A DNA stretch of 64,000 nucleotides from a bacterium (GTDB lineage: Bacteria > Zixibacteria > MSB-5A5 > WJJR01). The stretch spans positions 1 through 64,000 of the forward strand of contig JAKAKI010000079.1 in the NCBI GenBank assembly GCA_021813505.1, in the 5' to 3' direction. The position numbers and the translations under genes were made by a program. Positions 31,231 through 57,590 of this stretch are shown here, piece after piece. Under the pieces are notes generated by a model. The model ran no database searches. It had not been told where the DNA came from and saw only the letters and a list, made by a program, of their open reading frames with translations. The number at the start of each line of letters is the position of its first letter. Position 1 is the first letter of the stretch.

Positions 31231-31400
31231 GTGTGCCACGGACCACGCACGGGTGCCACGGACCACACACGGGTGCCACGGACAAGGAAGATCGAGCGGC
31301 TTTTTGCTCGATCTTCTTTGTCCGTGTCTTTTTCAATTGTGAGGAAAAGACACGGACAAGCCTTCTCCAAAAGGCCAGAGAAGGCTTTCCCGTGGCACAC
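31231..31400 (+). repeat. MITE-like element family 1, copy B (core only, triplicated gtgccacggac start)
   Basis: gtgccacggaccacgcacgggtgccacggaccacacacgggtgccacggacaaggaagatcgagcggctttttgctcgatcttctttgtccgtgtc...cacggacaagccttctcc. Confidence 0.75.
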
Positions 31401-35195: not shown

Positions 35196-35377
35196 GAGTA
35201 CTGACGAAGTGATTGACAAGGTGAAGATGTCCAGCAAGATTTCAATAAGGGTTTGGTAGGTGACGAAGTTGCGGCACCCCGGATAGAGTAGACACACAAG
35301 TCGAATCCAATGAATTGTACTAATTCATCGGTACCACACCGCTTGCGGTGGGTAAGACGGAATCTACGGCAGGTACC

Positions 35378-35875
35378 GTGACGCGACTCCACCACCATGA
35401 CAACCTCGGAACCGCACGGTTCATCACCTTCAGTTGCTTCCTGCGCGCGCCCAGCCTGACTCTCCCCAACGCGATGCCGATTCTGGCGCGTGAATTTGAC
35501 CGTGTGAGGCAGACTCACGGATTTCTCGTTCTCGGATACGTATTCATGCCCGAGCATGTTCATCTGGTGATTCTCCCATCGGAAGGGACCCGATTGGGGC
35601 GCGTGATCGGTGAGATCAAGTCGCGCTCCGCCCGCGCATTCTTCGCCACAATTCCCGCAGGCCCCAGGGACGCGACGAGAGTATTCTGGCAACGTCGCTG
35701 TTATGACCACAACTGCCGCACAACTGAGACGGTGTTGGAGAAGATCCGCTACTGCCACAACAATCCCGTGAAGCGCGGTCTCGTCACCGATCCGTCAGAA
35801 TGGACATGGTCGAGTTACAATGCCTATTTGGGGAAGACTGACGTGCCGGTCACGGTGGACATGATTCCACTGTAG
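35378..35875 (+). CDS. REP-associated tyrosine transposase (RAYT, Y1 transposase family)
   Basis: GYVFMPEHVHLVILPSEG (HxH), IRYCHNNPVKRGLVTDPSEWTWSSYNAYLG; flanked by REP palindromes. Confidence 0.9.
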   Translation: MTRLHHHDNLGTARFITFSCFLRAPSLTLPNAMPILAREFDRVRQTHGFLVLGYVFMPEHVHLVILPSEGTRLGRVIGEIKSRSARAFFATIPAGPRDATRVFWQRRCYDHNCRTTETVLEKIRYCHNNPVKRGLVTDPSEWTWSSYNAYLGKTDVPVTVDMIPL

Positions 35876-36807: not shown

Positions 36808-37034
36808 GGGGCGTGTTGAAGAACTTGTCCCCAACGTCACGGTAGTTGCGCAGGGGGGAGGTTGCTTCCTCGCTCCCTCCGCCTTCGGCGGAGACGCTCC
36901 TCGCAACGACAACTGTGCCTTTGCATTGCCAACGACATGTGAGATGTCGTTGCGAGGCGCGGCTCTTTGCGCCGAAGCAATCCCCCCCTTACAAAACTCC
37001 CGCCGCTCTTCAGAGGACTTCTTCAACACGCCCC
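36808..37034 (+). mobile_element. MITE-like element family 2, complete copy inserted in a REP palindrome
   Basis: 16-bp terminal inverted repeats GGGGCGTGTTGAAGAA / TTCTTCAACACGCCCC; ttg direct repeats at 36805-36807 and 37035-37037; flanks rejoin to gccccaccgcttgcggtgggtaagacgg. Confidence 0.88.
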
Positions 37035-38848: not shown

Positions 38849-38880
38849 AATCTGGCTTGACGCCGAAAGCCTGAGTATTC

Positions 38881-39056
38881 GGGTGCCACGGACAAGGAAG
38901 GCCGAGCGGCTTTTCTGCTCGGCCTTCCTTGTCCGTGTCTTTCTTCTGTTTGCGAGAAGAAGACACGGACAAGCAGATTCTCCAAAGAGCCGGAGAATCT
39001 GCTTGTCCGTGGCACCCCTTTGGTGAACATGGTTTCTCAACAGACCCCTACGCGCG
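38881..39056 (+). repeat. MITE-like element family 1, copy C (left end missing)
   Basis: gggtgccacggacaaggaaggccgagcggcttttctgctcggccttccttgtccgtgtc...cacggacaagcagattctccaaagagccggagaatctgcttgtccgtggcacc...ggtttctcaacagacccc. Confidence 0.88.
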
Positions 39057-39942: not shown

Positions 39943-40089
39943 TTTCGACTCCGTTTCTATACGCCCTTGTTACTGTATCGGCGCATCGCGCACGGGGTTT
40001 CAGACAATTCTACACGCGTAACCCCCGCTCATCGCCCTCCAACCCACTGTTTGGCAATCCCTTAAATCTCCCGGCCCACCCCTGGTGGG

Positions 40090-40310
40090 CGTGTTGAGGA
40101 AGCCCTCCGAAAGGTGGCGGCAGTTGTGTAAGGGAGAGGTTGCTTCGGCGCAAAAAGCCGCGCCTCGCAACGACATCACACTGGTCGTTGGCAACGCAAA
40201 GGCACAGTTGTCGTTGCGAGGAGCGTCTCCGCCGAAGGCGGAAGGAGCGACGAAGCAACCTCCCCCTTACACAACTGCCACGATCTTGAGGACAAGGTTT
40301 TGAACAGACT
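40090..40310. repeat. MITE-like element family 2, copy with imperfect ends
   Basis: gggcgtgttgaggaagccctccg...ggcagttgtgtaagggagaggttgcttcggcgcaaaaagccgcgcctcgcaacgac...gtcgttgcgaggagcgtctccgccgaaggcgg...gaagcaacctcccccttacacaactgcc...ttttgaacagactc. Confidence 0.75.
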
Positions 40311-40409
40311 CTTGGTAGCATGGGGATCCTGCCCATGCCCCGGTTCTTGGGCAGGAGCGCCACCCGGTGCGTATATTGATCTGGGGCAATAAGACCGAGA
40401 GACTCGTTT

Positions 40410-54815: not shown

Positions 54816-54900
54816 CGTGAGCAGCCGGCCGCGTGCCGGGTGCGCGATGCGAACACCTCTCTGCACGCGAGCCAGCGCCGGCCGCGTGGCCGCGATCTCC

Positions 54901-55116
54901 GGGGTCTGTTGAAAAACCAGTTTCCCAGCAAGGTGCCACGGACAAGCAGATTCTCCGGCTCTTTGGAGAATCTGCTTGTCCGTGTCTTTTTCCCAAGAAT
55001 AGAAGAAAGCCACGGACAAGGAAGACCGAGCAGAAGAGCCGCTCGGTCTTCCTTGTCCGTGGCACCGGAATAAACAGGTCTTCGACTTGATCGATGCTTG
55101 TTTTTCAACAATCCCC
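54901..55116 (+). mobile_element. MITE-like element family 1, complete copy D
   Basis: Terminal inverted repeats GGGGTCTGTTGAAAAACcAG / CTTGTTTTTCAACAATCCCC; tcc direct repeats at 54898-54900 and 55117-55119; two long hairpins inside; inserted in a palindrome matching 57440-57495. Confidence 0.88.
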
Positions 55117-55277
55117 TCCGATCTCGGGAGGCGGGCCGACTTTGCCCGTTCGGAAAACACGTGATACCCGACCCATACACAACCCCCAGACGTGATTGTC
55201 TTCCCGTTGTGAATAGGCGGGAGTCGGAGTAGATTAATGTGGCATCGAGCGGACAGCTGTCCGTGGCAGGGAGGTGG

Positions 55278-57294: not shown

Positions 57295-57437
57295 GGCAAT
57301 CTTCCTTCCTGAAGATGGTTAAAGAACTCTTCCTGCTCCTTCTGAACGGGAATTTCAGAATCACTGCTGCCCGTCGCCGGGCACGATATTCCAAACCAAT
57401 TTAGTCCGCATTTGTTCCCGGCCCATTCACTGCCGGC

Positions 57438-57590
57438 GCCGGGCCAGCGCCCCGCGCGTGGCCGCGATCTCTGATCGCGGGAGGCCGGAGGCCGACATCC
57501 AGCCGTGCCCGAACATCCGCTCTCGCCAAACCGCGAGACCACAATCGCCCTTCGGCCGACCGCGATCAGAGATCGCGGCCACTCCCGCCT
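57438..57590. repeat. Palindromic repeat gtggccgcgatctctgatcgcgg ... ccgcgatcagagatcgcggccac
   Basis: Inverted arms at 57459-57481 and 57560-57584; empty-site counterpart for the element at 54901. Confidence 0.85.

Follow-up and report, generated by a model that had tools for sequence, protein, structure and literature searches.

A MITE family, probably derived from IS1182, at the dyads of REP palindromes with target duplications of 4 or 5 bp

The length of a target duplication is usually taken as a constant of the transposase and is used as such in classifying insertion sequences, a scheme in which the IS1182 family is awkward. Members of this family target hairpins. One of them, IS1272, deletes its stem-loop and makes no target duplication; in the scheme of Wan et al. 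2017, duplication of the loop alone is 'pathway c', which is drawn as hypothetical only (PMC5678879, PMC4923244). Other members behave differently on plasmids of Rhizobium, Vibrio, Providencia and Enterococcus, where the element was seen to lie between two entire copies of a terminator-like hairpin (loci L260, L261, L266 and L269), which suggests duplication of the whole hairpin; three further plasmid elements (L257, L258 and L259) are inserted where no hairpin is obvious and have a duplication of 5 bp. REP palindromes are targeted by IS1397, ISKpn1, IS621, ISPpu9/10 and ISRm22; the REP-targeting families given by Tobes and Pareja are IS3, IS110, IS4, IS256 and IS5, with IS1182 unlisted (PMC1525189).

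The MITE family described here resembles IS1272 and TnSha1 of staphylococci in its probable transposase family (NF033551) and in targeting inverted repeats or hairpins without a sequence consensus. Unlike IS1272, which removes part or all of the stem-loop, it keeps both arms and duplicates 4 to 5 bp at the dyad. It shares a transposase family, as far as this can be inferred, and a hairpin target with the plasmid elements, which carry the whole stem-loop on both sides whereas the MITEs duplicate its tip only. Like IS1397 and the other REP-targeting elements it inserts into REP palindromes, but it strikes several unrelated REP types in one genome. Loop-centred insertion with tip duplication is a new variant among the hairpin-targeting IS1182 members, and no report of a parity-dependent duplication was found in the literature searched, most subscription papers lying outside it.

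The element in the window and its empty paralogue

The window is the whole stretch of DNA analysed, 64,000 nucleotides from a draft Zixibacteria genome. The element, its split target and a paralogous target without an insertion are placed in it as follows.

54901..55116, plus strand: MITE, 216 bp in the frame of the original prediction, shortening to 214 bp (54902-55115) when the outermost G/C is assigned to the target
54901..54917, plus strand: left terminal inverted repeat GGGGTCTGTTGAAAAAC, matching the ends of an IS1182-family IS in genome G003
55100..55116, minus strand: right terminal inverted repeat, GGGGATTGTTGAAAAAC as read on this strand
54935..54986, or 54937..54984, plus strand: internal perfect hairpin 1, 20-bp stem CACGGACAAGCAGATTCTCC, paired changes, conserved in 37 core copies
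55008..55064, or 55009..55063, plus strand: internal perfect hairpin 2, 23-bp stem GCCACGGACAAGGAAGACCGAGC, paired changes, conserved in 37 core copies
54886..54900, plus strand: left arm of the split REP palindrome (GTGGCCGCGATCTCC)
55117..55128, plus strand: right arm of the split REP palindrome (TCCGATCTCGGG)
57458..57480, plus strand: empty paralogous REP GTGGCCGCGATCTCTGATCGCGG
57560..57582, minus strand: inverted twin REP of the same type, forming a pair with the preceding one

The MITE sits within the palindrome GTGGCCGCGATC-TCC-GATC, and the original prediction had correctly placed TCC on both of its sides (54898-54900 and 55117-55119). Rejoining the flanks gives GTGGCCGCGATCTCCGATCTCGGGAGGC, and the empty site that had been noticed downstream is indeed present, reading GTGGCCGCGATCTCTGATCGCGGGAGGC at 57458-57485. 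The homology of the flanking palindrome persists on formal alignment: against 57430-57510 the rejoined flanks score 84, with a maximum of 57 among 300 shuffles of the flanks. The alignment is gapless at the insertion point, and some 12 bases downstream of the palindrome it opens a single gap of 3 bases; the absence of a length gap, as first claimed, is thus true of the palindrome alone. Folded as single-stranded DNA, the empty REP forms a clear hairpin (-9.5 kcal/mol, z -3.8) and the decayed copy at the window site forms none that is clear. When 1.5 kb around the element was used as a query for an orthologous empty site in genome G001 of the same genus, the element was matched and the flanking genes were not.

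The two internal hairpins belong to a core of 135 bp (GGGTGCCACGGACAAG...CTTGTCCGTGGCACCC), of which the genome stretches fetched hold 37 near-full copies, 8 of them with no recognisable terminal repeat. Examples of the core without such repeats are seen at 31272-31398 of the window and at loci L033, L034 and L037-L040. In the stems, 94.6% of cells are still paired, two-sided (compensatory) changes occur in 11 of 43 pairs, and conservation is higher than in the linkers (95% vs. 83%). Function, hairpin-templated repair or past mobility may each account for this pairing. A search of Rfam with the hairpins gave sub-threshold, chance-like microRNA matches only.

Genome-wide copies and target palindromes

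The terminal repeat has 112 matches with at most 3 mismatches in the 3.89-Mb genome, compared to 9 for a reversed control, and the 216-bp element has about 41 relatives by DNA similarity. When the repeats are paired, some 50 complete elements emerge. They fall into classes of about 133, 154, 211-222 and 227 bp, differ in their interiors and have in common the inverted repeat GGG(C/T)(C/G)TGTTGAAAAAC, also written GGGG(C/T)(C/G)TGTTGAAAAAC; the ends of the family include GGGGCGTGTTGAAAAAC. These are MITEs by size (131-251 bp), multiple copies, inverted repeats and heterogeneous interiors too short to encode a transposase. The window holds further copies, together with a gene for a REP-associated tyrosine transposase (RAYT).

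36808..37034, plus strand: second MITE of the family, 227-bp class, splitting the even palindrome CCCACCGC-TT-GCGGTGGG
40086..40312, plus strand: third MITE of the 227-bp class, more decayed
38864..39048, minus strand: copy of the 216 class with one recognisable terminal repeat
35348..35875, plus strand: RAYT gene, 103 bits on NF047646

The element at 54901-55116 had been taken for a second, unrelated MITE family, the first presumably being the MITE at 36808-37034, which has a 3-bp repeat and likewise splits a palindrome. This distinction falls away, as the two have the same inverted repeat and insertion rule and differ in their interiors alone.

Palindromes with at least 8 of 10 stem matches host 21 of the 49 complete elements in this genome, compared to 1.65% of random positions; all site statistics were computed on fetched stretches of genome, and the genomes are draft MAGs. 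The palindromes that host MITEs are unrelated in sequence. The one at the window site is not private to it but is a REP, with seven copies placed around the RAYT gene of contig C16, a gene that scores 89.6 bits on NF047646 against a cut-off of 80. Its 5' GTGG is a variant of the GTAG tag (PMC3733652). Another target type, CCCAC(A/G)GC-TT-GC(T/C)GTGGG, is the REP of the window's own RAYT, for which seven near-perfect copies of the form CCCAC(A/G/C)GC-TT-GC(T/C/G)GTGGG lie between 34797 and 35918; several of those on its 5' side are spaced about 97 bp apart. A third RAYT, that of C62, has palindromes of the CCCTGACC-NNN-GGTCAGGG type at its flanks. The link to a RAYT is weaker for palindromes of the CCCAGG type, since the gene they accompany on C67 is an ordinary IS200-type transposase. 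As other palindromes struck flank two more RAYTs, the feature shared by the targets is dyad symmetry and not sequence. The arrangement resembles REP/RAYT systems (NF047646) in having REPs of the kind that is split here beside a RAYT gene; the RAYT, a tyrosine HUH enzyme, accounts for the palindromes but not for a MITE with inverted repeats of the DDE type.

One insertion is genic. An IS1380-type transposase gene on C5, with near-identical copies on C47 and C69, is interrupted by a MITE, and the uninterrupted homologues (C26, C69) run in frame with a length that corresponds exactly to the loss of the MITE and one duplication. The C47 copy of this MITE carries a 10-bp tandem duplication inside the MITE.

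Duplication length and centring on the dyad

At the window site the duplication adopted here has five bases.

54897..54901, plus strand: left copy of the target duplication CTCCG, of which the TCC of the original prediction is the centre
55116..55120, plus strand: right copy of the target duplication CTCCG

The prediction of a short duplication holds, its fixed length of 3 bp does not: in the frame that fits all sites it is 5 bp, and the genome-wide data make CTCCG the better reading. The duplication is equally writable as CTCCG because the element ends are runs of G/C and the stem closes with a C:G pair. Across the family, the repeat can have G, A, C or T as its outermost base, followed by three that are mostly GGG; at exactly duplicated sites the outermost base matches the target. 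We counted it as target-derived and dropped a first frame, with four Gs and a 3-bp duplication, because sites with an outer A, C or T then lose their duplications.

Exact duplications are present at 36 of 83 distinct sites, 21 of 4 bp and 15 of 5 bp, with 3 sites showing a shorter one and none a longer one. Mismatched pairing of flanks, used as a control, gave 1.2% for 4 bp and 0.65% for 5 bp, or about 2% together (binomial 7e-40 for the excess). The remaining 44 sites lack an exact duplication and about a third of sites lack a strong palindrome, for which we assume decay and recombination.

A dyad with at least 7 of 9 stem matches was found at 26 of the 36 exact-duplication sites, and in 19 of the 36, of which 12 have 4 bp and 7 have 5 bp, it falls exactly on the midpoint of the duplicated bases, compared to 0.47% of control positions. 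The placing of the insertion at the palindrome centre, first made for the window site, is thus borne out there and more widely. Parity was assessed by comparing offset 0 with an offset of half a base (19 vs. 2 sites), Fisher-type tests having been set aside because centring and parity are not independent. At centred sites, even dyads give 4 bp and odd dyads 5 bp, as in these examples.

CCACAG-CTTG-CTGTGG: 4 bp
CCCCGCGC-TTTA-GCGCGGGG: 4 bp
GCGAT-CTCCG-ATC: 5 bp (window site)
CCCGCAG-CAGAG-CTGCGGG: 5 bp

The 133-bp class has 4-bp duplications at 6 sites and 5-bp duplications at 7, and the 216 and 227 classes also give both. Since one MITE class yields both lengths, it is the target and not the element that sets the length of the duplication.

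The centred 5-bp cases are all of the form CNNNG, which leaves room for a duplication fixed at 4 bp to which variation at the G/C-run ends occasionally adds a G or C. Such an explanation would fit the exact duplications with a non-G outer base, which are of 4 bp at 13 of 13 sites, and one odd palindrome (C64:63503) does show 4 bp. However, within the 133-bp class the total inserted length is one base greater at odd than at even dyads (C35 vs. C24), and duplications of both lengths are centred on dyads; we consider a fixed length unlikely. Sequence-specific targeting of one REP family in the manner of IS1397 or ISKpn1, with the palindrome incidental, would explain why a single REP type holds the insertions at C31:54901, C64:3528, C82:138322, C89:34496, C27:4871 and C82:89021. 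It is largely refuted, and we hold it to be rather less probable than a fixed length, because the dyads that are split belong to no fewer than four unrelated palindromes (GATC-TCT-GATC, CACAGC-TT-GCTGTG, CTGACC-NNN-GGTCAG and CAGGNC-GAA-GNCCTG) and a further site lies inside the IS1380-type gene.

The sites would not be independent if the MITE and its split REP were one composite unit (REP-MITE-REP) mobilised by a RAYT. Around a RAYT, REPs of the window type do come as inverted pairs whose members lie some 100-150 bp from each other, and at C82:138307-138835 both half-pairs have MITEs. Yet the flanks are independent from site to site, one REP type houses different MITE classes (133, 139, 150, 216 and 227 bp) and a single MITE class is found in different REP types, making a composite unit very improbable. 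Hardly any weight falls on the idea that there is no target preference at all and that MITEs persist in REP-rich intergenic DNA because genic insertions are purged: by inspection, and uncounted, most copies appear intergenic, as are the REPs, but purifying selection cannot bring about centring on dyads to the half-base (19 of 36 seen vs. 0.47% expected), and the idea is refuted by this centring.

Source transposase and proposed mechanism

The explanation we consider likely is that the MITE is a non-autonomous IS1182 derivative inserted in trans at a REP dyad, with target symmetry setting the length of the duplication. Its ends are those of a 1412-bp IS in G003, a genome of the same family (contig C1, 2-1413), whose transposase of 443 aa scores 366 bits on the NCBIfam model NF033551 IS1182 (cut-off 270) and has DUF772 and DDE_Tnp_1_6 domains. 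Among 133 genomes examined from the phylum Zixiibacteriota, 16 carry related IS copies, G001 of the same genus being one of them; a scan of a contig database gave only two relevant loci, both from Candidatus Zixiibacteriota NC_groundwater_1895. In these other genomes, the full-length IS copies whose flanks could be scored, 9 in number, all have at least 6 of 10 stem matches and 4 of the 9 at least 8 of 10; MITEs there are sited in palindromes as they are here. A search of the present genome (a draft, 97% complete) gave no close match to an autonomous IS1182 copy, and the transposase is accordingly known from relatives alone. An autonomous copy in the same genome is not a strict requirement for a MITE. 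Judging from the shared ends, the MITE is very probably moved in trans by a transposase of the IS1182 family encoded in related genomes.

Two other candidate sources were considered. IS1380-type transposases (C5, C26, C51 and C69) lie near some MITEs and were rejected because a MITE is inserted in one such gene. The other, an IS5/IS1182-like gene on C47, has TIR-like ends AGGTTGCTGAAAA that differ from those of the MITE, and we set it aside for that reason.

In the mechanism we propose, an IS1182-type transposase acting in trans would recognise the GGG(C/T)(C/G)TGTTGAAAAAC ends and insert the MITE at the dyad of a REP palindrome, cutting the two strands on opposite sides of it at a fixed distance, some 2 to 2.5 bp away. 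Gap repair would then copy the tip of the palindrome, 4 bp at an even dyad and 5 bp at an odd one, CTCCG in the case of the window site. The target would be recognised by its symmetry and not its sequence, possibly as an inverted repeat in the duplex or in the form of a cruciform presenting two hairpin tips, and REPs of several RAYT families would for this reason be usable as landing sites. We lean slightly towards a broader statement, namely that there is a DDE lineage in which fixed-distance cuts from a hairpin or cruciform tip let the target set the length of the duplication, and for which the REPs of unrelated RAYT families are generic landing sites.

One family of elements thus has two duplication lengths that track the symmetry of the target, which lets structure-directed cutting by a DDE transposase be tested on natural sites and suggests one logic behind hairpin deletion (IS1272), duplication of the whole hairpin (the plasmid IS1182 elements) and duplication of its tip (the MITEs). 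A single transposon family is also seen here to exploit REPs made by several RAYTs.

Some sites depart from the pattern, and many others are decayed. The loop is present as an inverted and not a direct repeat at C89:34496 (TCT...AGA), and the loops on the two sides are unlike at C27:4871 (TCC...GAA). Recombination between two MITEs in one inverted REP pair may have given rise to such loops. Both members of the pair at C82:138307-138835 (L137) appear to be occupied by 133-bp MITEs. Elsewhere on that contig, a 227-bp MITE (C82:109205-109431, L136) lies between the arms of a perfect inverted repeat that extends over 36 bp or more, the result either of fold-back duplication or of an artefact in the assembly.
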